From an uncultured Bacteroides sp. (GTDB taxonomy: Bacteria; Bacteroidota; Bacteroidia; Bacteroidales; Bacteroidaceae), in assembly GCA_949296575.1 (NCBI GenBank), contig CASFPE010000003.1, positions 1 to 64,000 on the forward strand: DNA of 64,000 bases, written 5' to 3'. The position numbers were made by a program, and so were the translations under genes. The stretch's first letter is position 1; each line of letters begins with the position of its first letter. Below are positions 7,676 through 36,787 of the stretch, piece by piece. The notes beneath the pieces are model-generated. The model saw nothing but the letters and a program-made list of their open reading frames with translations. It was not told the origin of the DNA and did not search any database.

Positions 7676-9370
7676 TCAGTCGGCATCCAGTTTGCGGTAG
7701 CGCACGCGCTTGGGCTCCGTCTGCCCGAGCCGCTTCAGCTTGTTCTCCTCGTATTCCGTGTAGCTGCCCTCGAAGAAGAACACCTTCGAGTCGCCCTCGA
7801 AGGCGAGGATGTGCGTGCAGATGCGGTCGAGGAACCAGCGGTCGTGGCTGATGACCACGGCGCACCCGGCAAAGTCGTCCAAGCCTTCCTCCAAGGCGCG
7901 GAGGGTGTTCACGTCGATGTCGTTGGTCGGCTCGTCGAGCAGCAGCACGTTGCCTTCCTCCTTCAAGGCCATGGCGAGGTGGAGGCGGTTGCGTTCGCCG
8001 CCCGACAGCATGCCGCACAGCTTCTCTTGGTCGGCTCCAGAGAAGTTGAACCGCGACAGGTAGGCGCGGGCGTTGATGTCGCGGCCTCCCATGCGGAGCG
8101 TTTCGTTGCCGCCCGACACCACTTGATAGACCGTCTTCTGCGGGTCGATGTCCTTGTGCTGCTGGTCCACGTAGGCGAGCTTCACCGTCTCGCCCACCTC
8201 GAAGGTGCCTGCGTCGGCCTTCTCCAATCCCATGATGAGGCGGAACAGGGTGGTCTTGCCTGCCCCGTTGGGGCCGATGACGCCGACGATGCCGTTGGGC
8301 GGCAGCATGAAGTTGAGGTCGTCGAACAGGAGCTTGTCGCCGTATGTCTTCTTCACGTGCTGGGCTTCGATGACCTTGTTGCCGAGCCTCGGCCCGTTGG
8401 GGATGAAGATTTCCAGCCGCGCTTCCTTCTCCTTCACGTCCTCGTTCAGCAGCTTGTCGTAAGAGTTGAGGCGCGCCTTGCCTTTCGCCTGCCGTGCCTT
8501 GGGCGCCATGCGCACCCATTCCAGTTCGCGCTCCAAGGTCTTGCGCCGTTTGCTGGCCACCTTTTCCTCCATCTCCATGCGGCGTGTCTTCTGTTCGAGC
8601 CACGAGGAGTAGTTGCCCTTCCAAGGGATGCCTTCGCCACGGTCCAGTTCCAGTATCCATCCGGCCACGTGGTCGAGGAAGTAGCGGTCGTGGGTGATGC
8701 AGATGACGGTGCCTTCGTATTGCTGGAGGTGCTGTTCCAGCCAGTCGATGGACTCGGCGTCGAGATGGTTGGTCGGCTCGTCGAGCAGCAGGATGTCCGG
8801 CTTTTGCAGGAGCAGGCGGCACAAGGCCACGCGGCGGCGTTCGCCTCCCGAAAGCTGGTTGACGGGCTGGCCTTCTGGCGGGCAGCGCAGGGCGTCCATG
8901 GCGCGTTCCAGGCGGCTGTCGAGGTTCCATGCGTCGGTGGCATCGATGATGTCCTGCAATTCCGCCTGCCGGGCGAACAGCTGGTCCATCTTTTCCGGGT
9001 CTTCGTAATATTCGGGCAGGCCGAACTTCTGGTTGATGTCCTCGTATTCGGCAAGGGCGTCCACCACGGGCTGCACGCCTTCCATCACCACTTCCTTCAC
9101 CGTCTTTTCCGGGTCGAGGAAAGGTTCTTGGGCAAGGTAACCCACGGAATAGCCCGGCGCGAAGACCACTTCGCCTTGGTATGACTTGTCCAGCCCGGCG
9201 ATAATCTTCAGCAGGGTGGACTTGCCGGAGCCGTTGAGGCCGATGATGCCTATCTTGGCTCCATAGAAGAAGGACAGGTAGATGTCCTTCAGCACTTGTT
9301 TGTTGTTCTGGAATGACTTGCTCACTCCGACCATCGAGAAGATGACTTTCTTGTCGTCTGTTGTTGCCAT
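7676..9370 (-). CDS. ettA: Energy-dependent translational throttle protein EttA (ABC-F ATPase)
   Basis: A 564-residue cytoplasmic ABC-F ATPase with two nucleotide-binding domains and no membrane segment. Domain 1 has Walker A GLNGSGKST and signature LSGGERRRVAL; domain 2 has GPNGAGKTT and LSGGERNRLHL; each has a DEPTNH/DEPTND Walker B. The length (EttA is about 555 residues), the arm insertion in domain 1 and the interdomain linker with KARQAKGKARLNSYDKLL are characteristic of EttA, which binds the ribosomal E site and gates translation by ADP/ATP ratio. It is a single gene with its own terminator. Confidence 0.93.
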   Translation of the reverse strand: MATTDDKKVIFSMVGVSKSFQNNKQVLKDIYLSFFYGAKIGIIGLNGSGKSTLLKIIAGLDKSYQGEVVFAPGYSVGYLAQEPFLDPEKTVKEVVMEGVQPVVDALAEYEDINQKFGLPEYYEDPEKMDQLFARQAELQDIIDATDAWNLDSRLERAMDALRCPPEGQPVNQLSGGERRRVALCRLLLQKPDILLLDEPTNHLDAESIDWLEQHLQQYEGTVICITHDRYFLDHVAGWILELDRGEGIPWKGNYSSWLEQKTRRMEMEEKVASKRRKTLERELEWVRMAPKARQAKGKARLNSYDKLLNEDVKEKEARLEIFIPNGPRLGNKVIEAQHVKKTYGDKLLFDDLNFMLPPNGIVGVIGPNGAGKTTLFRLIMGLEKADAGTFEVGETVKLAYVDQQHKDIDPQKTVYQVVSGGNETLRMGGRDINARAYLSRFNFSGADQEKLCGMLSGGERNRLHLAMALKEEGNVLLLDEPTNDIDVNTLRALEEGLDDFAGCAVVISHDRWFLDRICTHILAFEGDSKVFFFEGSYTEYEENKLKRLGQTEPKRVRYRKLDAD

Positions 9371-9406
9371 AAGTGATACGGTATAGTTATTGGGTATTCT
9401 GTTCGT

Positions 9407-10660
9407 TCATTGCTGGAATTTCACGACGGCCCTTCCGATGAGGCGGTCGTAACGCCCGCCGAAGGGGCGGTGGTACACGAGTATCATGTATTCGTTCTCC
9501 GTCTCATACGAGTTGCCCTCCACGGGCAGGGTGGAGCCTTGCGCGCTGCCGTCGGGGACGTAGAGGTACATGTAGTTGTAGGCTCCCTGCTTGAGCAGTT
9601 GCACGGCTTCGTACATCTGCGTCTGCGGGTTGTAGGTCATGCGGCTGGACGCATCGAACCGCCCGTCGGTGAATGCCCCTTGCAGGTAGAGGCCGCCATC
9701 ATGGAGGGGTGCATCGTCCCATGCCAAGGCGAAGTGTATGAAGATGTAGTCGGCCTCGGTGTCGTTGTCCTCCGCCTCGTTGTAGCGGATGAAGTAACGC
9801 CCGTTCTGGTCCACGTCGTAGCTGTAGTTGCGGCGGTTCTTGTCGGTGAACAGCACGGCATGGTAGTAAGGGTCGAAGAAGCGCACGTAGTCCACTCCCT
9901 GCGTGGCATAATGCACGTTGGTCAGCTCAAAGCGGCGGTATTCGTTGCCTGCGTCGAAGATGAGTCGGCGGTTATGCACGTATTGCAGCCTTCCCGGTTG
10001 CTGGTAGGTAGGCGCGATGCCGTCCACCATGTTGTCCCGCCGTTGGTTCTGGAACACTTGCACCTTCACTTCCGATGCCGGGTTGCGGATGTCGTAGCTC
10101 CCGTAGTTGACGCTGAAGCTCACTTGCTGGTGGGTGCTGTTGGTGTCGATGTCGGTGTTGCTGCTCACGGATGCGGCGATGGCCACCTGTTGTTCCACCA
10201 CGGAGAAGCAGGCGTTCAATACGTGTTCGCCTCCGTTGTCGTCATCGTAAACGCTCACGATGTAGTTGCCCGATGCCGTGATGCTCACGTCTTCGTTGGG
10301 GATTTCCAGCGCATAGTGGGTGTAGAGCATGGTGGTGTTGAACGAGTTGGCGTAGTAGTCGATGGTGTTGCCGTTGAATCCGTCCAGGTAGTCCAGTTCC
10401 GACAGTTCCGACGGTTGCCAGTCAGCGTTGCAATGCGTGATTTTGTAGGTGTAGCGGTGGTACTGGTGGCTCAGTTCGTCGAATGATATTTCGATGTAGT
10501 CGTCCGTTCCCAACTCGATGATGGGAGGCAGTTCCCAATCGCCGTTGGCCATGACCCGTATGGTCTTGATGCTTTTGTTGAAAGCTTCGTTGCGTTGGGC
10601 ATCGGCAGGCGCGGCGGCGCAGGCCAGCAGCAGGGGCAGGATGATGAGGAATCGTTTCAT
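9407..10660 (-). CDS. Type IX secretion system plug-type protein (DUF5103)
   Basis: A 417-residue secreted protein with a signal peptide (MKRFLIILPLLLACAAAPADAQ). After it comes a beta-rich region with IKTIRVMANGDWELPPII, then FDELSHQYHRYTYKITHCNADWQPSELSE, typical of DUF5103; members of this family were described as the plug protein of the SprA translocon in the type IX secretion system. The start at 10660 is chosen because the signal peptide begins there; an in-frame ATG at 10684 would add eight residues. It follows the Crp-type regulator gene closely. A likely T9SS cargo, the M6 protease, is encoded at 26.9 kb. Confidence 0.8.
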   Translation of the reverse strand: MKRFLIILPLLLACAAAPADAQRNEAFNKSIKTIRVMANGDWELPPIIELGTDDYIEISFDELSHQYHRYTYKITHCNADWQPSELSELDYLDGFNGNTIDYYANSFNTTMLYTHYALEIPNEDVSITASGNYIVSVYDDDNGGEHVLNACFSVVEQQVAIAASVSSNTDIDTNSTHQQVSFSVNYGSYDIRNPASEVKVQVFQNQRRDNMVDGIAPTYQQPGRLQYVHNRRLIFDAGNEYRRFELTNVHYATQGVDYVRFFDPYYHAVLFTDKNRRNYSYDVDQNGRYFIRYNEAEDNDTEADYIFIHFALAWDDAPLHDGGLYLQGAFTDGRFDASSRMTYNPQTQMYEAVQLLKQGAYNYMYLYVPDGSAQGSTLPVEGNSYETENEYMILVYHRPFGGRYDRLIGRAVVKFQQ

Positions 10661-10686
10661 GGTCATGGGTTTGAAAAAAGGCATCT

Positions 10687-11268
10687 TTACAATTGCCCTG
10701 CCCGCACGCGGCTCAGGGTTTCGGGAGTCATTTGCAGGAAGGAGGCGATGTGTTGCAGCGGCGAGCGTTTGGCCGGTTCGGGAAACAGTTTTAGGAATTT
10801 CTGGTAGCGGTCGTGCGCAGACTCGAAGCGGAACATGTCGGCTTTTATCTGCGATTCGATGAGGGAATGCTCCAGCATCCTTTGGTAGAGGAGGGCTATT
10901 TCAGGCAATTGCCCTGCTAATTGGAAGAAGGCATCGTGCGGGATGCCCCACACGCGCGATGGTTCGATGGCTTCGGCCATCAGGCGCGTGGGTTCTTGTT
11001 TCAGGAAACTTTCGATGCAGATGAACAGCCTGTCTTCGGAGGAGAAGTGTTCCGTCAGGTCTTTCCCGTTCTTGTAGTAGAACTGGCGTATCAGCCCCTT
11101 TTCCACGAATCCCATGCTTTTGCTCGTCTGCCCTTCTTGCAGGAACAGTTCTCCCCGGCTCATGTCCCTTGCGTAGAGTATCCCGGCAAAGCGGGCAAGC
11201 GTTTCGGGCGCGGGCTTCAAGGCGTATGCTTGGGTGATTCTCTGTGCGATAGTCAGGTTTGTTTCCAT
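10687..11268 (-). CDS. Crp/Fnr-family transcriptional regulator
   Basis: A 193-residue cytoplasmic regulator. Residues about 20-120 form a cyclic-nucleotide-binding-type barrel (GELFLQEGQTSKSMGFVEKGLIRQFY), followed by a dimer helix and a short C-terminal helix-turn-helix (QHIASFLQMTPETLSRVRAG). The effector-binding arginine/glutamate pair of true cAMP receptors is not evident, as is usual for Bacteroidetes members. Its stop lies just before the T9SS plug-type gene, so the two may be cotranscribed. Targets cannot be inferred. Confidence 0.88.
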   Translation of the reverse strand: METNLTIAQRITQAYALKPAPETLARFAGILYARDMSRGELFLQEGQTSKSMGFVEKGLIRQFYYKNGKDLTEHFSSEDRLFICIESFLKQEPTRLMAEAIEPSRVWGIPHDAFFQLAGQLPEIALLYQRMLEHSLIESQIKADMFRFESAHDRYQKFLKLFPEPAKRSPLQHIASFLQMTPETLSRVRAGQL

Positions 11269-11341
11269 AAGTCCAAGGGGGATATATTAAAAAAAGGAAC
11301 ATACGCTTTCTTCGGTGCGTGCATTCCTTCCTGTATCTTTT

Positions 11342-11416
11342 TGGTAGTGGATACGGGAATCGAACCCGTATTACATGCGTGAGAGGCATGCGTCCTAACC
11401 GTTAGACGAATCCACC
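11342..11416 (-). tRNA. tRNA-Glu (CTC)
   Basis: A complete cloverleaf on the minus strand. The acceptor stem is GGTGGAT with ATCCACT, the anticodon loop CTCTCAC gives CTC, the T-arm is CGGGTTCGATTCCCG, and a 3' CCA is encoded (TGG at 11342-11344 on the plus strand). Confidence 0.95.
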
Positions 11417-11467
11417 GATTGTTGTTTTCCCATGTTTGCCACGCTTCGTTTGCGCGGCATCCTTTGC

Positions 11468-11555
11468 GGAAGCGGGGGGATTCGAACCCCCGGTACGGTA
11501 ATCCCGTACGTCAGTTTAGCAAACTGGTGGTTTCAGCCACTCACCCACACTTCCT
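11468..11555 (-). tRNA. tRNA-Ser (GCT)
   Basis: An 88-base class II tRNA on the minus strand. The acceptor stem is GGAAGTG with CGCTTCC, the anticodon loop TTGCTAA gives GCT, and the long variable arm is GTACGGGATTACCGTAC. The T-arm is GGGGGTTCGAATCCCCC with a G discriminator. No CCA is encoded. Confidence 0.95.
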
Positions 11556-11685
11556 TTCCTTGCGTTTCCTCTCAAACGCGGGTGCAAATATAGGCACTTG
11601 TTTTGACGTGGCCAAGACTTTGCTGCCTTTTTTCTCAAATATTCTCTGCCGGCGGGGATATTTGCCGCTTCTTCCGGGGCTGTTC

Positions 11686-13344
11686 TCAGCCTTTGGCTTC
11701 TTGGTAGAGGAAGCGTTTGATGCTCTTTTTGGGCGTTTTCTCGAATTCTTCCGGGTAGATTTTCATTTTTGCGATTTGGGAGTAGGCCGGCAGTTCGGCG
11801 TTGATGGCCACCCTGTTTTCTTCCATCACCCTTTCGATGTCGGCATTCGTCAGCCCGTGCGCAAAGGCGTCGTCGAAGTCGGGATAGACAAGCCCCACCA
11901 GTTTGTCGTTTTGTTGCACCACGATGCTTTCTGCCACGTAGGGCATGTTGTTCAGCTTGTCTTCGATTTCTTCGGGGTAGATGTTCTGCCCGGACGCGCC
12001 CAGTATCATGTTCTTGCTTCTTCCCTTGATGAAAAGGTTGCCTTCTTCGTCGATGATCCCGAGGTCGCCGGTGTGCATCCATCCGTCTTCGTCGAGTACT
12101 TGCCGGGTGGCTTCTTCGTTCTTGTAGTATCCGAGCATCACGTTCGGCCCTTTGCACACGATTTCGCCTACCACGTGCGCGGGGTCGGGCGACAGGATTT
12201 TCACCTCCATTCTTGGGGCGGCTTTCCCGCACGAGCCGGGAGCGAAGCGCGTCCAGTCCTCGTAGGTGATGATGGGGCCGCATTCTGTCATGCCGTATCC
12301 CACGGTGTAGGGGAAGTCGATCATCTTCAGGAACATCTCCACTTCGTGGTTGAACGCCGCGCCCCCCACGATGACCACCTTGAAGTTTCCCCCGAAGCCG
12401 TTGATGATTTGTTCGCGCACGGTGGCTTTTATCTTGTCGTTCACGATGGGTACTTTCATGAGTATCTTCATGGTGGGGGTCTCTAACTTCGGCAGCACGC
12501 TTTTCTTGATGATTTTCTCGATGATGAGCGGCACGGAGATGATGATGCGGGGTTTCACGTCGGCAAATGCTTGGAAGATGATTTTGGGGCTGGGCATGCG
12601 CGTCAGGAAATAAATGTGGCATCCGGCGGTGAATTCGTAGATGAATTCGAAGGCCAGCCCGTACATGTGCGCCATGGGCAGCATGGACACAATCTTGTCT
12701 TCCGGCTTCAGGTCCAGCACTTCGTAGGCAAACCGCGTGTTGGACCACAGGCTCCGGTAGGGCAGCATCACGCCTTTCGAGTAGCTGGTGGTGCCGGAGG
12801 TGTAGTTGATGACGGCCAGTTCGTCGGGCTGGTCCTGGTGGTATTTCACGTGTTCCGTGCGGAAGTTCTTGGGGAATTTCTGGCCGAACATCTCGTTCAG
12901 GTGTTCTCTTGCGTGCGTCAGCTTGCGCGAGCGCGACACGAGCAGCGAGAAGTCGTTCATCAGCACGATGCCGTGCAGGAGGGGCATGGCGGCTTCGTTC
13001 AGGTTTTCCCACACCATGTCGCCCACGAAGAGCAGCTTTGCCTCTGAATGGTTCACGATGTGGTGTACGTTGTCGGCTTTGAACTCGTGGAGGATCGGCA
13101 CGGCTACCGCGCCGTACGTCAACGTGGCCAGGAAGGTGACGCCCCAGTGCGAACTGTTGCGCCCGCAGATGGCAATCTTGTCGCCTTTCTTTATCCCGCT
13201 TTCTTCAAACAGGATATGCACTTTCTCAATCTTCCGCGCAACGTCCTTGTATTGCAGCGTGGCGCCTTTGTAGTCGGTCAGCGCGTCGAGGTCCCAATTC
13301 CTCTTGATGCTTTCTTCTATATAGGAGATGAAGCTGTTTTCCAT
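11686..13344 (-). CDS. AMP-binding long-chain fatty acid-CoA ligase
   Basis: A 552-residue ANL-superfamily adenylating enzyme, most like long-chain acyl-CoA synthetases, which activate fatty acids by ATP to acyl-AMP and then acyl-CoA. Visible motifs: P-loop YTSGTTSYSKGVMLPY (canonical is SGTTGxPKG; here SYSKG), GYGMTECGP, and GWMHTGDLGIIDEEGNLFIKGRSKNMIL in the hinge region. The start MENSFISYIEES at 13344 is preferred over an upstream ATG at 13407, because a -7 promoter box lies between them. No other lipid genes are nearby. Confidence 0.9.
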   Translation of the reverse strand: MENSFISYIEESIKRNWDLDALTDYKGATLQYKDVARKIEKVHILFEESGIKKGDKIAICGRNSSHWGVTFLATLTYGAVAVPILHEFKADNVHHIVNHSEAKLLFVGDMVWENLNEAAMPLLHGIVLMNDFSLLVSRSRKLTHAREHLNEMFGQKFPKNFRTEHVKYHQDQPDELAVINYTSGTTSYSKGVMLPYRSLWSNTRFAYEVLDLKPEDKIVSMLPMAHMYGLAFEFIYEFTAGCHIYFLTRMPSPKIIFQAFADVKPRIIISVPLIIEKIIKKSVLPKLETPTMKILMKVPIVNDKIKATVREQIINGFGGNFKVVIVGGAAFNHEVEMFLKMIDFPYTVGYGMTECGPIITYEDWTRFAPGSCGKAAPRMEVKILSPDPAHVVGEIVCKGPNVMLGYYKNEEATRQVLDEDGWMHTGDLGIIDEEGNLFIKGRSKNMILGASGQNIYPEEIEDKLNNMPYVAESIVVQQNDKLVGLVYPDFDDAFAHGLTNADIERVMEENRVAINAELPAYSQIAKMKIYPEEFEKTPKKSIKRFLYQEAKG

Positions 13345-13373
13345 GGTATCTGCATGTTTGGTATAGATGTGCG

Positions 13374-13381
13374 CAAAGTTA
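13374..13381 (-). promoter_or_regulatory. -7 box for the acyl-CoA ligase gene
   Basis: TAACTTTG on the minus strand, 29 bp before the ATG at 13344. It fixes the gene start downstream of it. Confidence 0.55.
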
Positions 13382-13407
13382 TGCTTTTTTGTGCATTGCG
13401 CAAACAA

Positions 13408-13846
13408 AAAGGGAAGAAAAACGCCGAAATCTCAGATTTTGGTTCTTGGGCTTCCGGCAGGGGCGCAAAATCTTGCCGTTTGATGCAGGGAACAGTTCCC
13501 GGAACTTTTCAAAAAAGTTCAGCAACAATTGCATGGAAGCTCATAGAACATTTCGCGAAACCTTCCATGGTTTCATGCAACACATTGGAAGGTTTTTCAA
13601 AAACCTTTGGGGCTGTTTTCCGGCGCATGCGGATGGGGCTTTCACCGTTCCCGATAACGTTTTGATTTTTACCTGAAAAGCGGGCGCATTTTCCTTGAAA
13701 GATTTTGGATTTTATTGGGAAAGATTCCGGCAGATTCATCATCTGCCGGAACACCCCATTGGGGATTTCCTGCAAAGCGGCATAACGTTGCGGTCGATAT
13801 TTTTGCTTTCCGAGGTGCTTTTGCCGGTTTTTATTGCTATTTTTGC
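13408..13846. other. Non-coding spacer with overlapping inverted repeats
   Basis: No gene is visible here. Between 13488 and 13605 there are five perfect inverted repeats: 13488-13500 (GGGAAC/GTTCCC), 13502-13520 (8-bp stem), 13532-13539 with 13562-13569, 13558-13567 with 13586-13595, and 13591-13605 (7-bp stem, 1-base loop). The third and fourth share bases 13562-13567, so they cannot form together. The rest (13606-13846) shows nothing recognisable. Confidence 0.7.
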
Positions 13847-13888
13847 AAAAAAGAACGTTCAAAGGTAGCCATTGGCCACCTTTGAACG
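13847..13888 (-). terminator. Rho-independent terminator downstream of the RhuM remnant
   Basis: An 11-bp perfect stem (13856-13866 with 13878-13888), one mismatch, three more pairs and a 3-base loop. On the minus strand it is followed by TTCTTTTTT (13855-13847). Confidence 0.8.
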
Positions 13889-13919
13889 GAACAAAACAGG
13901 AAAAGCATGGATCGGAGGT

Positions 13920-14321
13920 TCTCATGCGCTTTTTGTCGATGATATATCCTCTGATGGCAAACTGCCGAAGCACGAACGTACACCATTGCCGGAACTGGGT
14001 GGCGCGGACGGAATTGACGCGGTAGCCTACGGAAATGATGGCATCGAGGTTGTAAAACGTGGTATTGTATGTTTTCCCATCCTCGGCAGTATGTGCAAAT
14101 TTTGCACATACTGAATCTTGTTGTAATTCAGAACTGTCGAAGATATTTTTCAGGTGCTTGGTGATGACCGTCCTGTCAACGCCAAACAATTCGGCCATTG
14201 CCTTTTGGGTTGCCCAAATGGTTTCACCCTTATACAATACTTGTATGCCGTTTTCTTGGCCTTCGGCGATAAAGGTAAGGAACTCTGCTGTGCTGTTCCG
14301 TATTTCAAATTTCTTAGCCAC
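13920..14321 (-). pseudogene. RhuM-family protein, N-terminal remnant
   Basis: The encoded segment EIRNSTAEFL, then TQKAMAELFGVDRTVITKHL, CAKFAHTAEDGKTYN, and YRVNSVRATQFRQW through FAIRGYIIDKKR, is the N-terminal half of RhuM-family proteins (first named from Salmonella SPI-3; common on bacterial islands, function unclear). Homology stops abruptly after DKKRMR near 13920. The open frame continues to 13509 but reads through a terminator hairpin and repeat DNA with no resemblance to the family. Intact relatives are around 300 residues or more, so about half is lost. A GTG at 14321 is the likeliest original start; a TAAATTTG -7 box lies just upstream on the minus strand. Confidence 0.75.
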
Positions 14322-14567
14322 GATGCGATGGATGATCAATGATGACGAATGCAAATTTAGATAAAATTTGCGGGATTCTGCATCAGTAGGATAAAGAAAA
14401 CGCCCGTCCTTTGACAAAAGATTGTCTTGAACCCTAAAATCTGAAATCTAAAAACCAGAAATCTGCAATTTCCTTGTCCACTGGTCCCCTTGTCAACTTA
14501 AAAAAGATTTTTCGGTTCATGTTGGCTTTGTTTGTAAATAAATACAAAAAATGAAAGGGGCGTAAGA

Positions 14568-14599
14568 TTTGCTTTTCATAAAATGGATATTTACATTTG
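14568..14599 (+). promoter_or_regulatory. Promoter of the first TPR-HTH gene copy
   Basis: TTTG at 14568-14571, 20 bp, then TACATTTG at 14592-14599: a full Bacteroidetes promoter, 20 bp before the ATG at 14620. Confidence 0.7.
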
Positions 14600-14619
14600 C
14601 AGGCAATTTGCCGTGAATT

Positions 14620-15981
14620 ATGTATAAATATTTGCTTAATATGCTGTTGGGCTTTTTGTTGCTCCTCTTTTTCCTGCCTTCTTGCAGCAACCGGCAGCAG
14701 GAAGTGGAGGAACTTTTTGCGCGTGCCGCGCAGTGGGAGGAGGCAGGCCATCCCGATTCTGCATTGGTGGACTACCGCCGCGTGCTGCTATTGTTGGAGG
14801 AGAGGGACGATGCGGAGTCCGAAGCCCGTGCGCACGCCAAGGCAGGCGAATTGTTGTTCAAGCATTCCCTCTACGATTTCTCTTTGGAGGAATACCGGCA
14901 GGCATGCGTCCCTGCCGCCCGTTTGGCAGACAAGGCATTGCTGTCGGCTTCCTTGCGCGGCATGGCGAAGAACTATTGGATGAAGGATTCCATGCGACGG
15001 GCAGACGAATGCTTCCGCCGGGCGTTGCAGTGCGTGGCGCAGGTTGCGGATTCGCAAGAGGTGGCATTGATATATAATAATGTGGCAGGGTTCCTGTTCG
15101 AGCAAGGGAAGTATGACAGTGTTTTGTATTATAACCGCCATGCCCTTCTTTGCGATGCCAACGACACCATGCTCCACCGCAGCTATTTGCAGCGGGGGGA
15201 TGTTTTCAAGATGAAAGGGCAATACGATTCTGCGGCTTATTATTACCATCAGTGCGTGGATTTTCCGGAAATCTATATAAGGGGTGGGGCTTTCCTTTCA
15301 TTGAAACGCCTGTACGAACAGTTGGGCGATACGCTTCGGGCGGATGCTTATTCCAAGCAATACCATTTGCGCCTGGATACGATTCTGTATCGTGAACGCA
15401 CGGATGAGATGTCATCGGCCTACTTGCGCCATGCCGTGCAGGCTGCTGTTAAAGAATCGGCTTCATCAAAAGCAGGGTGGGCATGGGCGCTTGCGCTTTT
15501 GGGGGCAGGGTGCTTCCTGTATGGGTGGCGGCGCATGCGGAAGCGCAGGGGAACGCGAGCCTTGCGCCAAGCCAAGCGACGGGAGCAGGAACTCGGCAGC
15601 TGCTGGCAGGCGTTCCAAGCAAGCAGGGCGTATCAGAAGATTTGCCAATAGCAGGAAGAAGAAGCAGGCAACTTGCGCAGCAAATAGGCCGTGTCCGTCA
15701 CCTTTTCCCACGAGGAGCAGGAGGCGTTGGCTGCGGAAGTATTCGCTGCCTGTCCCGATTGGGTGGCGCAGCTTCGCCGTGCATGCCCGTCGCTGTCTGA
15801 GCAAGAAATCCTTTACTGCTGCTTGGCGGGGCGGCTGGGTTTGTCGAACTTCTGCATCGAGCGTTGCATGAATCTGTCGCAGGGCGCGGTGCGCCAATGC
15901 AAGCTGCGCGTCAAAAGGAAGTTGGAGGCTTCCAAAGAGGGACAAAAGCTGTGGAAACAAATATTCCATAAAAACGGCTGA
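14620..15981 (+). pseudogene. TPR sensor/HTH regulator, copy 1, interrupted by two amber codons
   Basis: Closely similar to the intact regulator at 18422-19783 and exactly the same length (1362 bp). It encodes a lipobox-like signal (FLPSC, Cys22), TPR-type helices, a membrane segment around residues 280-300, and then TAG at 15649-15651 and TAG at 15685-15687. In the intact copy these are TTG (Leu) and CAG (Gln), so each is a single-base change. The 98 codons after the second TAG stay open and encode the complete HTH domain. Translation to the first TAG gives 343 residues: sensor and membrane anchor without the DNA-binding domain. This is most simply a recent pseudogene; readthrough or a dominant-negative product is possible. 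Confidence 0.85.
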
Positions 15982-16043
15982 TTTTTCCACACGTTTTCGC
16001 CCGTTCGTAACGCTTAAGGCCGAATTTGTAACGGGATAATCGC

Positions 16044-16073
16044 TTGCCGTTGCAGAAATATCCCTTATCTTTG
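16044..16073 (+). promoter_or_regulatory. Promoter of the truncated DUF3244 gene
   Basis: TTG at 16044-16046, 19 bp, TATCTTTG at 16066-16073. It is conserved with copy 2 (19856-19885) although its gene is truncated. Confidence 0.6.
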
Positions 16074-16096
16074 CGTCAGACAAAATTGATAAAATC

Positions 16097-16186
16097 ATGA
16101 AAAAAGTTATTTTATTTGTGTTTGCATTATTCATGTGTCAGGGATTTGCCTTTTCAAGAAGCCGAAGCTTTATAGTAATAATATAA
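16097..16186 (+). pseudogene. DUF3244 secreted protein, truncated copy
   Basis: Encodes 29 residues, beginning MKKVILFVFALFMCQGFAFS, almost the same signal peptide as the intact DUF3244 protein at 19910. After SRS the frame runs into sequence that corresponds to the region downstream of the intact gene, so the mature domain is deleted. At most a free signal peptide would be made. Confidence 0.8.
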
Positions 16187-16201
16187 GGTAATAAACTGAA
16201 C

Positions 16202-16290
16202 CGGCAGGAACTGGGAAAGAACCTTTCCGCCCGTCCTGCCGATGGAAATCGTTGCTTTGCAACTATACGCAATTGCAAAGGTAGCGGTTT
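16202..16290. other. Conserved structured intergenic element, copy 1
   Basis: An outer 8-bp stem (16202-16209 CGGCAGGA with 16234-16241 TCCTGCCG) encloses a GGAAAG/CTTTCC stem. It is followed by a second hairpin with TTGCAA arms and, on the minus strand, TACCTTTG, a -7-like box. The same element is at 20400-20490 before the peptide precursor gene. It may be an untranslated leader structure or a small divergent RNA. Confidence 0.5.
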
Positions 16291-16349
16291 CCAAAGGGAA
16301 AGGCAATTATTAATCATTAAAAATTTAAGAAATAGGTGAATTTACAGCT

Positions 16350-16787
16350 ATGAGAAATCCTGAGGTTGTATGGGAACGCATGGGCAATATTCTGCGTTAT
16401 TCTACTGATATTTGGTATTCTTTGTTGGTGACCCTGGGTGTTGTCAATGTTATGTTAGGCACATTGTTGCATGGCGATGTTGCGTTACAGATCTTGACAT
16501 GGAGCGGGTGGACTATTATTGTCCTCCTTGTGCTGCGGGCTAGCGTGCTTTTCTTCAACAAGAAGTATGAGCCAAAAGCTGGCATTGGATCACGTGCGTA
16601 CAAGTTGCGGAGATGGATGGCTGGGCTATTTCTCCCTGTCATGATTCTGCAAGTATTCGGAAACTTTTTTGTTGAATTGAAACTTGTCGCAGAAATAGCT
16701 GCATACGTTTATATCGTTGCAATTATTGCGGTGGAGGCGTACAATATCGCTATGAACAATAAGAAAAACAAACTTTCTGCCGCATGA
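16350..16787 (+). CDS. Four-helix membrane protein of unknown function
   Basis: A 145-residue protein with about four hydrophobic segments (roughly residues 18-40, 46-68, 88-108 and 115-133) and short charged ends; the C-terminus is NNKKNKLSAA. I do not recognise the family. It is less GC-rich than its neighbours and lies directly after the conserved structured element, in the position that the peptide precursor has in the other copy. It has its own strong terminator. It lies between the two copies of the regulator module. Confidence 0.8.
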   Translation: MRNPEVVWERMGNILRYSTDIWYSLLVTLGVVNVMLGTLLHGDVALQILTWSGWTIIVLLVLRASVLFFNKKYEPKAGIGSRAYKLRRWMAGLFLPVMILQVFGNFFVELKLVAEIAAYVYIVAIIAVEAYNIAMNNKKNKLSAA

Positions 16788-16792
16788 ATAGA

Positions 16793-16834
16793 AAGCAAGC
16801 CGGGACACGCGGCAAAGCATCCCGGCTTGCTTTT
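16793..16834 (+). terminator. Rho-independent terminator
   Basis: Perfect 13-bp stem (16793-16805 with 16820-16832), 14-base loop, and a T run at 16831-16834, just after the membrane-protein stop. Confidence 0.88.
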
Positions 16835-16869
16835 CCAAAAACAGAATACAAATACATAACAACCATAAT

Positions 16870-17481
16870 ATGAAGACTAAGAAACCAACTGCCGTTGCCG
16901 CCTGCCTGATGCTGTGCCTGCTATTCTTTTCCTGCACTTTTGCCAACCTTCCCGGCTTTTATTCCGGCTACAAACTGTTGACAGACGAGCAGAAAGCAAG
17001 GGTCGTCCGCTGCGACCGTCCCATTGAAGAATTGGAAAACGACGGCAATGTGTATGTGGTGGACACGGCGCAGATGCGGGCTTACCTTCAAAGGCACGAC
17101 AGCGTGATGGTGTATGACTGGGGAGTCAACTGCCATTCCGAGCATTGCATTTCCCTCCCTTTGTTTGAATCGCTGTGCAAAAGCCACGGGCTTACGCCCT
17201 GCATCGTCAAGGAATACTTCCAGTTGGATTCGCTTCCTTCCCGCGAGAAGGTGGTTTCACCCATCCTGTTCATCGACAAAAGCATGTACCGCACCGACTA
17301 TTGCAACAAATACACCAAGCGTTTCTACGGGCAGTTGACGGGGACAACGATGAAAGAGCGCGGCTACGGGCGCTTCCATTTGTTCGTGGAAGGAAGGTAT
17401 GTGGACACGTATGATGCCTGCACGGACGGCTTCGCGCCTTCCGCATTGAACTTTAAAAAACTGGAACCAACCGATAAATGA
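16870..17481 (+). CDS. Putative lipoprotein of unknown function
   Basis: A 203-residue exported protein. The N-terminus (MKTKKPTAVAACLMLCLLFFSC) is a lipoprotein signal with Cys22 as the likely lipidated residue. The mature part contains five or more cysteines, including a CHSEHC motif in DWGVNCHSEHCISLPLF, as well as SPILFIDKSMYRTDYC. The CxxxxC placement after a beta-strand-like VMVYDWGV recalls thioredoxin-like folds, but the spacing is not CxxC, so this is only a suggestion. It is followed 7 bp later by a probable outer-membrane barrel, likely in one operon. Confidence 0.8.
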   Translation: MKTKKPTAVAACLMLCLLFFSCTFANLPGFYSGYKLLTDEQKARVVRCDRPIEELENDGNVYVVDTAQMRAYLQRHDSVMVYDWGVNCHSEHCISLPLFESLCKSHGLTPCIVKEYFQLDSLPSREKVVSPILFIDKSMYRTDYCNKYTKRFYGQLTGTTMKERGYGRFHLFVEGRYVDTYDACTDGFAPSALNFKKLEPTDK

Positions 17482-17488
17482 CAATATC

Positions 17489-18187
17489 ATGAGAACAAGA
17501 TCATTCATCCTTATCGCCGCTTGCCTGATGCTCCTGCCGGGAACGATGGCGGACGCGCAGGAAACAAAAGCGCAGCAACAGCCGCCGCACAACATGGTGC
17601 GCATTGAGGGCGGTTATGCCTTGACGGGATTGAAGAAAGAGAACTTCTCGCCTTGGGGCAAGGATTATTACCGCCGGTTGAAGGGCGGCCCTGCCGTCAC
17701 GGCGGGTTACAGCCGTTTGTTGAAGCAAGGGCGGAAAAATGATTTCCTGTATTTGGGTGTGGAATACCGCCATTTGGACGTTTCGTCCGGGGAATACACG
17801 GTGAAGGAGGCGGGCAGCCTCGTGGAAGACCACGTGCGGCTGCACTACCTTGCCCCGCAAGCAACGTGGATATGGCAGTTTGCCAAGCAGTGGCGCACGC
17901 ACATCGGCGCGGGTTTGGGCTATGCCCTCTACAACAACAACGGAAAGAAGGACGGCGCGGCTTGCGTGACGAACGCGCACGGCCTTGGGATGAACATTGA
18001 TGTGCATTTGGAATGGATGGCGGGCGATCGGTTCAGCATCACGGCAGGCTTGGAGGCCGTGACGGGCTGGTACTGGAACTTGCGCCGGAAGCAAGGGGGC
18101 GTGTCGGAGAAAATCCGCCTGAACGACGATTACGATTTCTCGCCCACTTACGGCGGCTTCATGGCGGGTTTCCGCTATTATTGGTGA
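17489..18187 (+). CDS. Probable outer-membrane beta-barrel protein
   Basis: A 232-residue protein with a signal peptide ending near ADAQ (MRTRSFILIAACLMLLPGTMADAQ). The mature sequence is rich in alternating aromatic/polar strands (VTAGYSRLL, FLYLGVEYRHLDV, THIGAGLGYALY) and ends with FMAGFRYYW; a C-terminal aromatic residue is typical of outer-membrane barrels. It resembles TraO-like small porin-fold proteins, but no conjugation genes are near. It forms an operon with the preceding lipoprotein and ends at a terminator. Confidence 0.8.
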   Translation: MRTRSFILIAACLMLLPGTMADAQETKAQQQPPHNMVRIEGGYALTGLKKENFSPWGKDYYRRLKGGPAVTAGYSRLLKQGRKNDFLYLGVEYRHLDVSSGEYTVKEAGSLVEDHVRLHYLAPQATWIWQFAKQWRTHIGAGLGYALYNNNGKKDGAACVTNAHGLGMNIDVHLEWMAGDRFSITAGLEAVTGWYWNLRRKQGGVSEKIRLNDDYDFSPTYGGFMAGFRYYW

Positions 18188-18215
18188 AACACAGAAGTAA
18201 ATCAATACACTCTCT

Positions 18216-18257
18216 GCCCTCTGCCGATGCGAATCGCCGGAGGGCAACCCTTTTCTT
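18216..18257 (+). terminator. Probable terminator
   Basis: GCCCTC at 18216-18221 pairs with GAGGGC at 18240-18245, enclosing a CGAT-GCGA-ATCG hairpin, with a T-rich tail from 18251. It lies 28 bp after the barrel gene stop. Confidence 0.6.
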
Positions 18258-18360
18258 CAACAGATATGGGGGCAAGAGCATGGGATGCATATTATGCACC
18301 ACAAACGTGAATAAACGTGAAAATTCGGGGGGGGGTAAAAACCGTTTTCTTGATAAATGT

Positions 18361-18391
18361 TTTGTGTTGTTAAGCGCAGCCGTTATATTTG
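18361..18391 (+). promoter_or_regulatory. Promoter of the intact TPR-HTH regulator
   Basis: TTTG at 18361-18364, 19 bp, TATATTTG at 18384-18391. Its layout matches the copy-1 promoter at 14568, although surrounding bases differ. Confidence 0.7.
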
Positions 18392-18421
18392 CAATCGGGA
18401 TTTGTAAAAAATGAATAAGTC

Positions 18422-19783
18422 ATGAATAGATTCCTATCCTTTACATATAGGTTCGTTTTATTGTTTCTTTTTTTGTTTCCTGCTTGCAGCAACCGTCAGC
18501 AGGAAGTGCAGGAACTCTTTGTACGTGCTGCGCAGTGGGAGGAGTCAGGCCGTCCCGATTCTGCATTGGTGGACTACCGCCGCGTGCTGCTATTGTTGGA
18601 GGAGAGGGACGATGCGGAGTCCGAAGCCCGTGCCCACGCCAAGGCAGGCGAACTCTTGTTCAAGCATTCCCTCTACGATTTTTCTTTGGAAGAATACCGG
18701 CAGGCATGCGTCCCTGCCGCCCGTTTGGCAGACAAGGCATTGCTGTCGGCCTCCTTGCGCGGCATGGCGAAGAACTATTGGATGAAGGATTCCATGCGAC
18801 GGGCGGACGAATGCTTCCGCCGGGCGTTGCAGCGCGTCGAGCAGATTACGGACTCGCAAGAGGTTGGGGCATTGTATAATAATGTGGCAATGCATCATTT
18901 TTTTCAAAGCACTTATGCAGATGCCTTGCGCATGAGCCGCCTTTCCCTCCAGTATGCGCCGGACGACACGATGCTTCACCGTAGCTACCTCTTGCGGGGC
19001 CACATTTGCAAGGCGACGGGGCAATACGATTCTGCGGCTTATTATTACCATCAGTGCGTGGGCTTCCCGGATATTTACATAAGGGGTGGTGCCTTGTTGT
19101 CATTGATGCGCCTCTACGAACAGTTGGGCGACACGCTTCAGGCGGATGCCTACTCCAAGCAATATCATTTGCGATTGGACACGATTGTGCATCGTGAGCG
19201 CACGGATGAGATGTCGTCGGCCTACTTGCGCCAAGCTGTGCAGGAAGCGGCAAGTGCAAATGATTCCGCAAAAGGATGGTGGGCAGGGATGCTTGTATTC
19301 CTTTTGGCGGGTGCAGGTGCATATTTTGTGTGGCGCAGGCGGAAGCGCAGGCTCATGCGTGCCTTGCGCCAGGCCAAGCGGCAGGAGCAGGCGCTCGGCA
19401 ACTGCTGGCAGGCGTTCCAAAATAGCCGCACTTACCAGAAGATTTGCCAATTGCAGGAGGAGGAAGCAGGCAACTTGCGCAGCAAACAGGCCGTGTCCGT
19501 CGCCTTTTCCCACGAGGAGCAGGAGGCATTGGCCGCAGAAGTGTCAGCCGCCTGTCCCGATTGGGTGGCGCAGCTTCGCCGTGCATGCCCGTCGCTGTCT
19601 GAGCAGGAAATCCTTTATTGCTGCTTGGCGGGGCGGTTGGGTTTGTCGAACTTCTGCATCGAGCGGTGCATGAATCTGGCCACCGGCAGCGCACGCCAGC
19701 ACAAACAGCGCATCAAAAAGAAGCTGGAGACTTCCAAAGAGGGTCAAAAGCTGTGGAAACAAATATTCCACAAAAACGGCTGA
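18422..19783 (+). CDS. Membrane-anchored TPR sensor with C-terminal HTH domain
   Basis: A 453-residue regulator. Order: lipobox-like signal (FLFPAC, Cys22); TPR-type helical repeats to about residue 270 (AQWEESGRPDSALVDYRRVL, AYYYHQCVGFPDIYIRGGALLSL); a membrane helix near 280-300 followed by positive charges; a Gln/Glu-rich coiled coil (RALRQAKRQEQALGNC); and a C-terminal domain (about 365-453) with SLSEQEILYCCLAGRLGLSNFCIERCMNLATGSARQHKQRIKKKL, like LuxR-type or sigma region 4 helix-turn-helices. It probably senses an extracytoplasmic signal and regulates the adjacent DUF3244 and peptide genes. A lipobox plus a later membrane helix is unusual; the N-terminal segment may instead be a plain signal or anchor. 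Confidence 0.88.
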   Translation: MNRFLSFTYRFVLLFLFLFPACSNRQQEVQELFVRAAQWEESGRPDSALVDYRRVLLLLEERDDAESEARAHAKAGELLFKHSLYDFSLEEYRQACVPAARLADKALLSASLRGMAKNYWMKDSMRRADECFRRALQRVEQITDSQEVGALYNNVAMHHFFQSTYADALRMSRLSLQYAPDDTMLHRSYLLRGHICKATGQYDSAAYYYHQCVGFPDIYIRGGALLSLMRLYEQLGDTLQADAYSKQYHLRLDTIVHRERTDEMSSAYLRQAVQEAASANDSAKGWWAGMLVFLLAGAGAYFVWRRRKRRLMRALRQAKRQEQALGNCWQAFQNSRTYQKICQLQEEEAGNLRSKQAVSVAFSHEEQEALAAEVSAACPDWVAQLRRACPSLSEQEILYCCLAGRLGLSNFCIERCMNLATGSARQHKQRIKKKLETSKEGQKLWKQIFHKNG

Positions 19784-19855
19784 TTTTTCCACACGTTTCG
19801 GCCCGTTTCCCGTCATTTGTCACGCTTAAGGCCGAATTTGTCACGGGATAATCGC

Positions 19856-19885
19856 TTGCCGTTGCAAAATTATCCTCTATCTTTG
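19856..19885 (+). promoter_or_regulatory. Promoter of the DUF3244 gene
   Basis: TTG at 19856-19858, 19 bp, TATCTTTG at 19878-19885; the ATG is at 19910. Confidence 0.65.
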
Positions 19886-19909
19886 CGTTAAACAAAATCA
19901 ATAAAAACA

Positions 19910-20260
19910 ATGAAAAAAGTTATTTTATTCGCGATTACATTGTTCATGTGTCAGGGATTTGCCTTTTCGAGGAATCACACGGAACCGGAAAAGAAAGTAA
20001 TAATAATAAGTGGAGGTGCCTTGGTTAAGCCTGAAATGGTGGATGTGACCATCGGCAACAACACCTTAAAGGCCACGTTCCGCCAAGCGGTGGACGATGT
20101 GCGGGTGGTTGTTTCCGGCAAGATGGGCGAGGTGGTGTTTGAAGAAGAAATGGACGTGCAGCCCCTTGAACAATTGCCTGTTTATCTGCCCGACTACGAA
20201 GCAGGCACGTATCGTGTGGAAATCATCACGCCCGAAGGAGTGTTGGAAGGCGAATTTTAA
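19910..20260 (+). CDS. DUF3244-type small secreted protein
   Basis: A 116-residue exported protein with a clear signal peptide (MKKVILFAITLFMCQGFAFS). The mature region is one small beta-sandwich-like domain of the DUF3244 type, ending PVYLPDYEAGTYRVEIITPEGVLEGEF. The family occurs in Bacteroidales beside TPR-HTH regulators, as here; no activity is known. Its own promoter and terminator suggest that it is a separate unit, perhaps the target or ligand of the upstream sensor. A truncated copy remains at 16097. Confidence 0.82.
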   Translation: MKKVILFAITLFMCQGFAFSRNHTEPEKKVIIISGGALVKPEMVDVTIGNNTLKATFRQAVDDVRVVVSGKMGEVVFEEEMDVQPLEQLPVYLPDYEAGTYRVEIITPEGVLEGEF

Positions 20261-20331
20261 TGTTTCACTTGCAAACAATTCAGTTTATGGAATGTTTGAA
20301 TAAATTGGGCAAGAACAACTTCAGCCCGTGT

Positions 20332-20369
20332 GGCTGCACCGCATTTGTCGGTTTGGCCGTGCAGCCTTT
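20332..20369 (+). terminator. Probable terminator after the DUF3244 gene
   Basis: Perfect 8-bp stem GGCTGCAC (20332-20339) with GTGCAGCC (20359-20366), followed by TTTG. The poly-T run is short. Confidence 0.55.
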
Positions 20370-20399
20370 GCCTTAAATAATAAGGTGCATAAACTGAAC

Positions 20400-20490
20400 C
20401 GGCAGGAACCGGGAAAGAACCTTTCCGCCCGTCCTGCCGATGGGAATCGTTGCCTTGCAACTCTACACAATTGCAAAGGTAGCGGTTTCC
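20400..20490. other. Conserved structured intergenic element, copy 2
   Basis: The 8-bp outer stem (20400-20407 with 20432-20439) and inner GGAAAG/CTTTCC stem (20412-20417 with 20421-20426) are conserved with 16202-16241, as is the TTGCAA hairpin and the minus-strand TACCTTTG. It lies about 40 bp before the peptide precursor gene and is the likeliest site of transcriptional control for it. Confidence 0.5.
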
Positions 20491-20531
20491 AAAGGGGAAG
20501 GGAGTTTTTACAACTTTTATTTATATAAATT

Positions 20532-20771
20532 ATGAATGCGAAAGAAGTTATGCAAAAGAATGTCCTTCTTGCTTTGAAAGGCGAAGAAGTGTTGCAAGAG
20601 TTTGAAATGGTGGAACTGAAAGGTGGAAACTCTCCCGGAGGAGATATTGAAGGGAAAGGGGCTGATGTCCTCTGCCCAAATATAGTGTGTCCGGGTGAAA
20701 CGAACTTAGGCGATGACTGCAAGCCGATCATAATACCACCAATCAATAATATTAAGATTTGCGGTATTTGA
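20532..20771 (+). CDS. Probable RiPP precursor peptide, GG-Bacteroidales type
   Basis: A 79-residue peptide without a Sec signal. Residues 1-32 look like a leader: charged MNAKEVMQKN, then LKGEEVLQEFEMVELKGG, ending in a double glycine (31-32) of the kind cut by C39 peptidases. The predicted core (33-79) has glycine-rich NSPGGDIEGKG, then four cysteines (48, 53, 63, 77) in CPNIVCPG, DDCKPIIIPP and IKICGI. It is followed by a radical SAM maturase and a C39-peptidase exporter, the context described for GG-type Bacteroidales natural-product precursors. The modification and final structure are unknown. It is separated from the maturase gene by a perfect 30-bp palindrome. Confidence 0.8.
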   Translation: MNAKEVMQKNVLLALKGEEVLQEFEMVELKGGNSPGGDIEGKGADVLCPNIVCPGETNLGDDCKPIIIPPINNIKICGI

Positions 20772-20781
20772 TTTTGAGTTT

Positions 20782-20811
20782 TTTCGGGTACGCCAATTGG
20801 CGTACCCGAAA
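20782..20811. promoter_or_regulatory. Perfect 30-bp intercistronic palindrome
   Basis: Fifteen bp on each side of the centre 20796/20797 pair perfectly, starting TTTCGGG and ending CCCGAAA. It lies 10 bp after the precursor stop. No T run follows, so it is more likely an RNA-stabilising or partial-termination hairpin that keeps precursor mRNA in excess over maturase mRNA. Confidence 0.75.
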
Positions 20812-20842
20812 CTAAAACTAATATGTAAATTAAGAAGATACC

Positions 20843-22153
20843 ATGAAGACAAGCCGATACAACTATATCATCCACAACAACGGGCAGTTGCTTTGCTTCA
20901 ACGCCTTGTCGAGGGCGTATTTCTACATGCGCCCGGAGATGGAGCATTATTTGGACGAAGTGCTGGCTCGCCCGGATGACTACAAGGAAAAGCTTCCGTC
21001 GTTCTACCAAAAGCTGTCGCAAGGATGGTTCATCGTGGACGAGACGGTGGACGAACTGGAGGTCATCCGCAAGCTGCACCGCGAGGCGTGCGATGCGAAG
21101 GATTACAACCTCACCATCCTCCCCACCTTGGGGTGCAACTTCCGCTGCTGGTATTGCTACGAAGAACATGCGAATGCCCGGCCGATGAGCGACGAAGTGG
21201 TGGGGCGCGTCCGCAAGTGCATTGCCCGGATTGTGGAAGACAAGGAAACGCGTTCCCTGAACTTGACGTGGTTTGGCGGGGAGCCGTTCTTGCTTTTCCA
21301 AAAAATCATCGCTCCGCTGAACACGTATGCCAAGACGCTTTGCCGGGACAGGGGCATCCGCTTCTCCTCGTCGGCCACGACCAATGGGTATTTAATCAAC
21401 GAAACTGTGGCGCGGCAGTTGGCGGAACTGTGCATCAACCATTTCCAAATCACCTTGGACGGCGACCGCACGCACCACGACCGCACGCGGGTGGCCAAGG
21501 AGGGGTCGTCGTTTGACACCATCCTGCATAACGTGAACCTCATCTGCCGGGAAAATTCGGAGGCGGAGGTGCTGCTCCGCTTCAACTATGAGGCCGGCAA
21601 CTTCCTGCCGGAGCAAATAGCCCGGCAAGTGGCGGAGCGCGTTGGGAAGACCCATCGGAAGCGAATCCGCTTCATCTTCCGCAAGGTGTGGCAAGCCGAG
21701 GAAGTGCCGGACGTGAGGGCGAAGGTGCAGGAACTGATTCGCCTGCTGAAAGCGGAAGGCTTTGATTATGCCTACGGGTATGAGTTGGTGACAGATTATA
21801 CTTCCTGCTATGCAGCCCGCAAGCACTCTATTGTCATCACGCCGGACGGCTTGGTGGGCAAATGCACGGCGAGGACTGATTTTGCGCAATATGCGGCGGG
21901 GCGGTTAGGCGAAGACGGGCGCATCGTGTGGAAAGAGGCAGGCGCATCGCTGAACGACATTTATGCCACGCCGCTGTTTGAGAACGAGATGTGCCTGTCG
22001 TGCAAGAAGCTGCCCCTGTGCATCGGGATGTGTCCCAAAATCATCAGCCCGGAGGGCAAGATACCTCCTTTGGATTATGCCTGCCCGCACAAGGACAAGC
22101 AGTTTGATTGGGGCGACCTGATAGCGGGTTATTGCCGGATGCGGGATGCCTGA
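20843..22153 (+). CDS. Radical SAM/SPASM peptide maturase
   Basis: A 436-residue radical S-adenosylmethionine enzyme. The N-terminal 85 residues resemble a peptide-recognition region (YNYIIHNNGQLLCFNALSRAYFYM). The [4Fe-4S]-SAM motif is CNFRCWYC, followed by a WFGGEP strand. The C-terminal SPASM region carries auxiliary-cluster cysteines in SCYAARK, GKCTARTD, MCLSCKKLPLCIGMCPK and YACPHKD. Enzymes of this class install crosslinks or epimerise residues in precursor peptides; the likely substrate is the peptide encoded just upstream. The stop codon lies in the centre of a perfect palindrome. Assignment to a peptide maturase is strong; the chemistry is unknown. Confidence 0.9.
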   Translation: MKTSRYNYIIHNNGQLLCFNALSRAYFYMRPEMEHYLDEVLARPDDYKEKLPSFYQKLSQGWFIVDETVDELEVIRKLHREACDAKDYNLTILPTLGCNFRCWYCYEEHANARPMSDEVVGRVRKCIARIVEDKETRSLNLTWFGGEPFLLFQKIIAPLNTYAKTLCRDRGIRFSSSATTNGYLINETVARQLAELCINHFQITLDGDRTHHDRTRVAKEGSSFDTILHNVNLICRENSEAEVLLRFNYEAGNFLPEQIARQVAERVGKTHRKRIRFIFRKVWQAEEVPDVRAKVQELIRLLKAEGFDYAYGYELVTDYTSCYAARKHSIVITPDGLVGKCTARTDFAQYAAGRLGEDGRIVWKEAGASLNDIYATPLFENEMCLSCKKLPLCIGMCPKIISPEGKIPPLDYACPHKDKQFDWGDLIAGYCRMRDA

Positions 22154-22164
22154 CAGGCATCCCG
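22142..22164. promoter_or_regulatory. Palindrome spanning the maturase stop codon
   Basis: CGGGATGCCTG (22142-22152) and CAGGCATCCCG (22154-22164) are perfect complements around the single base 22153. The maturase TGA is 22151-22153, at the hairpin tip. No T run follows. Confidence 0.75.
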
Positions 22165-22219
22165 TGGACAGGCGGGAATCATCGTTTGGAATTTGTATCA
22201 CTTTATAAACATTCAGATT

Positions 22220-24538: not shown

Positions 24539-24539
24539 C

Positions 24540-26753: not shown

Positions 26754-26759
26754 CGCAAT

Positions 26760-26909
26760 ATGGATGGACAGGGAGATATTGAATTACGGAGCGAAAAGGC
26801 AAGGGACATTATTGGGAAGATGCCCCGTTCGTTGACGGTGTGGAGCTATGTGGTGCTGTGCGTGGTGGCTGCTTTGCTGGCATTAGGAATATGGATTGCC
26901 CTCCACTGA
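26760..26909 (+). CDS. 49-residue membrane stub resembling the start of an HlyD-type adaptor
   Basis: The product begins MDGQGDIELRSEKARDIIGK, followed by MPRSLTVWSYVVLCVVAALL and ends at GIWIALH. The IELRSE-x-x-DIIGKxP segment and a single membrane helix match the N-terminal end of Bacteroidetes HlyD-family membrane fusion proteins, which normally continue for more than 300 periplasmic residues. Here a TGA follows the helix and sits in the loop of a strong terminator. It is either a truncated adaptor gene or a retained mini-subunit of the exporter. It starts 6 bp after the exporter stop, so it is very likely translated. Confidence 0.7.
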   Translation: MDGQGDIELRSEKARDIIGKMPRSLTVWSYVVLCVVAALLALGIWIALH

Positions 26910-26940
26910 TGCGGCATCGGCGGAGGGCAATCTTTTGTTT
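26894..26940 (+). terminator. Terminator of the peptide cluster
   Basis: Perfect 11-bp stem (26894-26904 with 26922-26932), 17-base loop, followed by TTTTGTTT. The last codons of the 49-residue gene form the left arm, and its stop is in the loop. Confidence 0.88.
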
Positions 26941-26944
26941 GTGC

Positions 26945-28708: not shown

Positions 28709-28740
28709 TCAGGCTTAGGTTAACGGGTGGTATTTTCAGT

Positions 28741-29226: not shown

Positions 29227-29270
29227 ATGTTTTTCCTTTTTTTAGTGTGACATTCGTTTAAAACCGCGTG

Positions 29271-29301
29271 CAAAGATACCGAAATGGCCGAATAATGCAA
29301 A
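29271..29301 (-). promoter_or_regulatory. Promoter of the DUF4494 gene
   Basis: Read on the minus strand: TTTG (29301-29298), 19 bp, TATCTTTG (29278-29271), ending 44 bp before the ATG at 29226. Confidence 0.65.
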
Positions 29302-29334
29302 AGCGAAAGAGGGATTATTTGGAAAGGCGCATCC

Positions 29335-30165: not shown

Positions 30166-30179
30166 GTTCGTTGGGCGGT

Positions 30180-32908: not shown

Positions 32909-32917
32909 GTCAATGAG

Positions 32918-34762: not shown

Positions 34763-34780
34763 GTTTTTGTTGTTTTGGTG

Positions 34781-34811
34781 CAAAATTAGAAAATTCCTTT
34801 TATCTGACAAA
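34781..34811 (-). promoter_or_regulatory. glmS promoter
   Basis: On the minus strand: TTTG (34811-34808), 19 bp, TAATTTTG (34788-34781), 18 bp before the ATG. An in-frame upstream ATG at 34810 lies inside this promoter and is rejected as a start. Confidence 0.75.
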
Positions 34812-34847
34812 CGTGGAATCCCCTATAATATTGCAAGCAAGTTTGGC

Positions 34848-35921: not shown

Positions 35922-35933
35922 AATCAGCTTCGT

Positions 35934-36758: not shown

Positions 36759-36787
36759 CTTCGCTATGTTGTTCCGTGAGTTTCGTA

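Follow-up and report, generated by a model that had tools for sequence, protein, structure and literature searches.

Two paralogous TPR regulator genes, copy 1 (14620–15981) and copy 2 (18422–19783), lie in the window analysed here, a 64,000-nucleotide stretch of a draft genome of an uncultured Bacteroides sp. (G000), and they raise the question of why copy 1 carries two amber codons and no frameshift. Translated as a single 1362-bp frame, copy 1 gave 343 codons, TAG, 11 codons, TAG, 97 codons and TGA, and these in-frame stops cut off a C-terminal domain that the intact copy 2 retains (Table 1). A preliminary description had reported that the two copies were equal in length, and both are indeed 1362 bp long and align without a single indel. 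The codons it gave as replaced by TAG were found as TTG and CAG in copy 2, and the 36-bp spacing of the stops and the open frame beyond them were likewise confirmed. Its statement that the copies differ at two positions holds for the TAG changes, which are real, but 18% of sites differ overall (82.1% identity, ungapped). The lesion in copy 1 is real and was correctly described, and its explanation is ordinary.

Table 1. Features of the two regulator loci and the adjoining RiPP genes (positions in the window)
Feature	Position	Strand	Basis
Copy 1 promoter-like site, TTTG-N20-TACATTTG	14568..14599	+	Pattern scan
Translatable 343-aa part of the copy 1 regulator, with lipobox-like signal, TPR, hydrophobic stretch and short basic tail	14620..15651	+	Translation, profile matches, by-eye reading
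Copy 1, in-frame TAG no. 1	15649..15651	+	Translation, alignment to copy 2
Copy 1, in-frame TAG no. 2	15685..15687	+	Translation, alignment to copy 2
Copy 1, stranded C-terminal domain (97 open codons), helical, HTH-like	15688..15981	+	Translation, alignment, structure models, profile search
Remnant of the DUF3244 partner of copy 1 (29 aa): signal-peptide start, then stop	16097..16186	+	Comparison with copy 2 locus
Sequence lying beyond the DUF3244 gene in copy 2, here fused directly to the remnant	16180..16312	+	Comparison with copy 2 locus
Copy 2 promoter-like site, TTTG-N19-TATATTTG	18361..18391	+	Pattern scan
Copy 2 regulator, intact (453 aa)	18422..19783	+	ORF, profile matches, alignment
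Intact DUF3244 gene, partner of copy 2 (116 aa)	19910..20260	+	Profile match
Probable RiPP precursor, ELKGG (double-glycine) leader	20532..20771	+	Sequence and position; no NCBIfam or Pfam match
Radical SAM peptide maturase	20843..22153	+	Profile match

Each copy opens with a lipoprotein-like signal, ending in LPSC or FPAC, and gave TPR profile matches. In both, a run of hydrophobic residues with basic ones after it was read by eye at approximately residues 286–310, where the hydropathy threshold flagged the signal peptide only. These features agree with the earlier view that a complete sensor and membrane anchor remain translatable from copy 1. At the C-terminal end of both copies, approximately 90 residues were helical in structure models. 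The model of this domain (96 residues) consisted entirely of helices in an HTH-like order, at low confidence (mean pLDDT 65.1; 51.7 for full-length copy 2), and Foldseek retrieved no match to it in the PDB at E ≤ 0.001. PDB sequence searches were uninformative. Against the LuxR/GerE profile PF00196 (curated cut-off 23.5), the domain scored 14.5 bits in copy 2 and 11.8 bits in copy 1. In copy 2, it aligned to positions 448–547 of NCBIfam NF053779 (BT3442 family, equivalog), with a score of 34.8 bits that was far under the curated cut-off of 940. The domain severed from copy 1 likely binds DNA, judging from profile matches that all lie under curated cut-offs. Of the proposed split between the regulator and its DNA-binding domain, the loss of the C-terminal domain thus stands, but DNA binding itself is only probable. 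A promoter-like site precedes each copy, and sites of the same pattern (N19–21) numbered seven over both strands of the window. The pattern at the two copies is that of the −33/−7 promoter type of Bacteroidota.

Damage in the copy 1 unit extends beyond the two stops, as its partner DUF3244 gene is truncated as well. Homology between the two loci runs over 14654–16158 and 18456–19971, respectively, and resumes at 16183 and 20380. Approximately 380 bp is missing here, the first ~20 codons of the homologous gene are kept and 29 codons are readable. A 9-nt direct repeat, AATAATAAG, occurs in the copy 2 locus at 20002 and 20376, near both ends of the missing stretch, and would suit a loss of the partner gene by deletion between short repeats. 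The neighbour of copy 2 matched PF11589 (DUF3244) at 37.2 bits, over the curated cut-off of 25; a PDB sequence search with this protein found nothing. This cut-off was also exceeded, at 36.3–38.6 bits, by the genes next to four more TPR regulators, from G000 and from the genome of a sister species (G001). The whole of G000 contains two PF11589 genes, one after copy 2 and one after a regulator on contig C13, both regulators being intact, and G001 contributes three further regulator–DUF3244 pairs. Given these two pairs in G000 and three in G001, the regulator and the DUF3244 gene recur together as a pair, and copy 1 alone stands without its partner.

A very recent tandem duplication was ruled out by the dS of 0.43 between the copies (dN/dS 0.34 overall). 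The differences were uneven, ranging from 1 to 41 per full 30-codon block; codons 31–120 are nearly identical, and codons 151–180 and 271–300 are far apart. The near-identical codons 91–120 hinted at gene conversion (run test, P = 0.06). In the tail after the stops, dN/dS was 0.19, compared with 0.38 before the stop, both being pairwise values from which the copy 1 branch is not separable. Nine of the 11 nonsynonymous tail codons fall at 420–437, overlapping a predicted helix (423–437), presumed to be the recognition helix, and the clustering of tail changes in this helix gave P = 6e-5, a descriptive value because the cluster was seen before testing. Because of the lower ratio in the tail and the concentration of its changes at 420–437, the divergence is considered mostly older than the loss. 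The low tail dN/dS is mainly a record of selection that acted while the gene was still functional, and it does not speak for readthrough. Copy 1 thus appears to be an old, diverged paralogue whose breakage is young, and the position of the tail changes suggests that each copy had already acquired its own preferred DNA sites by the time copy 1 broke.

No homologue suited to an outgroup or population comparison emerged. Among 399 family genomes searched at the protein level, only G000 and G001 gave matches at E ≤ 1e-30, and the G001 match was 30% identical. Genome contigs scanned with copy 2, viral contigs, plasmids (protein search with copy 2) and phages (DNA search with 14600–22200) likewise yielded no relative. 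G001 carries one regulator at its RiPP–radical SAM locus, and this shares 30% identity with copy 2. The two genes after the copy 1 cassette (16839–18251) are found in G001 on a different contig, where no such regulator immediately precedes them. Therefore, copy 1 is absent from G001 or has been lost there. Short intergenic elements at 18191–18251 and 13485–13750 of the window recur many times in G001.

Two stops of the same type with no frameshift had been regarded as an unusual form of decay. This view was not borne out by the codons of the gene itself: starting from copy 2, in which a single substitution would turn 120 of the 453 codons into TAG, this codon accounted for 56%–61% of the nonsense changes across six mutation settings. 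A pair of ambers with no frameshift is therefore not odd, and both stops would be TAG with a probability of 0.31–0.37, or approximately one time in three. The neutral changes since the loss can be set at two, the nonsynonymous tail codons that lie apart from the helix cluster, or at all 11. The gene would then have accumulated between 13 and 60 substitutions, with 0.66 to 3.0 nonsense hits expected, and two or more such hits would have a probability of 0.14 to 0.80. The positions of the stops, which sit in the linker between the membrane helix and the presumed DNA-binding domain, are mildly unusual: 6% of TAG-able pairs have both stops beyond codon 343, and 5% have both inside 12 codons. In the related BT3442-like family, one of 70 matches had an internal stop, a TAA.

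Copy 1 has very probably undergone ordinary and recent pseudogenisation, as an older, diverged paralogue of a membrane-spanning one-component regulator ahead of a DUF3244 gene. This reading is favoured by the combination of two TAGs in an open frame with a destroyed partner gene, by the intact regulator in front of each of the only two DUF3244 genes in the genome, and by the chance expectations for both the type and the number of stops. The occurrence in G001 of the 16839–18251 genes elsewhere, without the regulator, points in the same direction. It is weakened by the retained promoter-like site, the lack of any indel, the placement of the stops and the rarity of internal stops in the BT3442-like family, as well as by another TAG-interrupted gene in such a cassette of the sister species. 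This last gene, of a secreted protein (L074:11212, contig C2 of G001), has an in-frame TAG near the end of its signal peptide, where the G000 counterpart (L124:14078–14509, contig C13) has a Gln codon, and both flanks are conserved. Together with the open and conserved tail of copy 1, it could be taken to indicate amber readthrough, in which both TAGs would be decoded to a degree, yielding full-length copy 1. All three stops in the two genes are TAG, but this arises by chance approximately one time in five at a TAG share of 0.6. When samples of G000 (464 kb) and G001 (495 kb) were compared, 50 in-frame stops were listed, three of them TAG; judged by eye, 49 belonged to wrong-frame, antisense, start-extension or doubtful ORFs, and the one at L074:11212 to a probable real gene. 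A suppressor tRNA, proposed earlier as something to look for, did not emerge, with no CUA anticodon among the 45 tRNAs of G000 or the 42 of G001 (each genome ~85% complete). Release factor RF1 (prfA) is present in G000 (454 bits against a cut-off of 423.25) and free of stops, and TAG is the terminal codon of seven of 48 chosen ORFs in the window, copy 1 among the seven. As successive stops would also multiply the loss of product, readthrough is hardly credible, and the absence of a CUA anticodon among the tRNAs matched, the presence of RF1 and the use of TAG as a terminator all favour plain decay.

An error of sequencing or assembly would be conceivable in a draft, probably metagenome-derived, genome of 35 contigs and 85.4% completeness, in which assembly could be misled where the two copies are nearly identical. 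Both TAGs are, however, clean substitutions between copies that differ at 18% of sites, and the deletion in the partner gene is independent damage; we consider such an artefact very unlikely. Somewhat more room, though still little, is left for the reading that the truncated TPR membrane protein of 343 aa is retained as a dominant-negative partner or decoy, which would bind the signal of copy 2, or copy 2 itself, and dampen it. The promoter-like site and start of copy 1 are intact, its stops lie in the linker between helix and C-terminal domain, and the near-identity of codons 31–120 makes a shared ligand plausible. Against this stand the destroyed partner gene, a stop placement that reaches merely 5%–6% by chance, and the lack, among 399 family genomes, of an orthologue that would show conservation. 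That the linker stops turned a duplicated transmembrane regulator into an output-less sensor competing for the signal of copy 2, ahead of a RiPP cluster, is accordingly improbable; should the truncated sensor prove functional, it would illustrate a simple path from duplicated membrane regulators to decoys. Under ordinary pseudogenisation, the ancestral design would have comprised a periplasmic TPR sensor, one membrane helix and a cytoplasmic helix-turn-helix-like domain. Copy 1 would formerly have served a target promoter of its own, lost this role when its cassette broke up and taken nonsense hits by ordinary mutation, the lesions arising in either order. A 343-aa N-terminal product without the presumed DNA-binding domain may still be made, most likely as a transient step in the decay of the gene. 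In copy 2, the TPR part would sense a periplasmic or envelope signal, and the cytoplasmic domain would act on promoters, probably that of the DUF3244 gene and perhaps those of the RiPP genes. On this reading, copy 1 is a clean case of a regulator paralogue dying along with its partner gene, and it cautions that stops of the same type need not imply recoding.

The RiPP/radical SAM cassette around these genes is of more interest than the stops of copy 1. Copy 2 is followed by the DUF3244 gene, the probable RiPP precursor, the radical SAM maturase, a CarboxypepD_reg-domain protein and a C39-peptidase ABC transporter. The dS relative to G001 was 0.046–0.049 for the radical SAM and CarboxypepD_reg genes (20843–24538) and 0.38 for the ABC transporter, compared with ~0.7–1.2 for most flanking genes (26945–45915). 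These values suggest that the RiPP core was recently transferred or recombined between species. The precursor downstream of copy 2 and that of G001 at L054:12620–12862 have a common leader (EEVLQEFEMVELKGG) and differ strongly past the double glycine. The regulator upstream in G001 is only 30% identical to copy 2, but its promoter and first ~60 codons show ~73% DNA identity. Judged from these sequences, regulator and peptide look like an exchangeable cassette on a fixed maturation machine. The regulator–DUF3244 pair also recurs ahead of secreted-protein genes. A perfect 30-nt inverted repeat (20782–20811), probably a terminator or attenuator, separates the RiPP precursor from the radical SAM gene; an Rfam scan of 9000–29000 gave two tRNAs only. 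Just upstream of copy 1, the minus-strand stretch 13509–14417 seems to hold another broken gene, a truncated RhuM-family gene in which the first 69 of 252 profile positions were matched. Farther along the window, the ORF at 28675–29250 had a dN/dS of 1.31 over 172 codons between the two species and may be a fast-evolving gene, or no gene in that frame, and one 738-aa ORF contains an internal duplication (50932–51666 and 52000–52734, 77% identical).

Among known systems, the BT_3442-type Bacteroides TPR proteins (NF053779) have the TPR N-terminus in common with copy 2 and match its C-terminal domain in the region given above, whereas copy 2 is shorter and scores far under the cut-off of that family. 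The neighbour of BT_3442, BT_3441, is presumably a DUF3244 protein. In a report on B. thetaiotaomicron, the TPR protein BT_3442 and the immunoglobulin-like BT_3441 are placed in one putative operon, an order that resembles the regulator–DUF3244 order found here (PMC2954219). The copy 2 locus also resembles Bacteroidales radical SAM RiPP clusters with TPR genes: another report describes TPR-domain genes in two selected clusters, suggested to be regulatory, together with PCAT exporters and GG-type leaders, and its main text mentions neither DUF3244 nor pseudogene (PMC10352776). For genes with in-frame stops, it has been argued that dN/dS stays below 1 in many of them and that they may undergo readthrough, but also that they tend to be short-lived (PMC7918605). 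Copy 1 differs from bacterial nonsense-mutation pseudogenes in that the gene itself has no frameshift, and it is like them in its in-frame stops, its intact adjoining relative and the damage to its neighbour gene.
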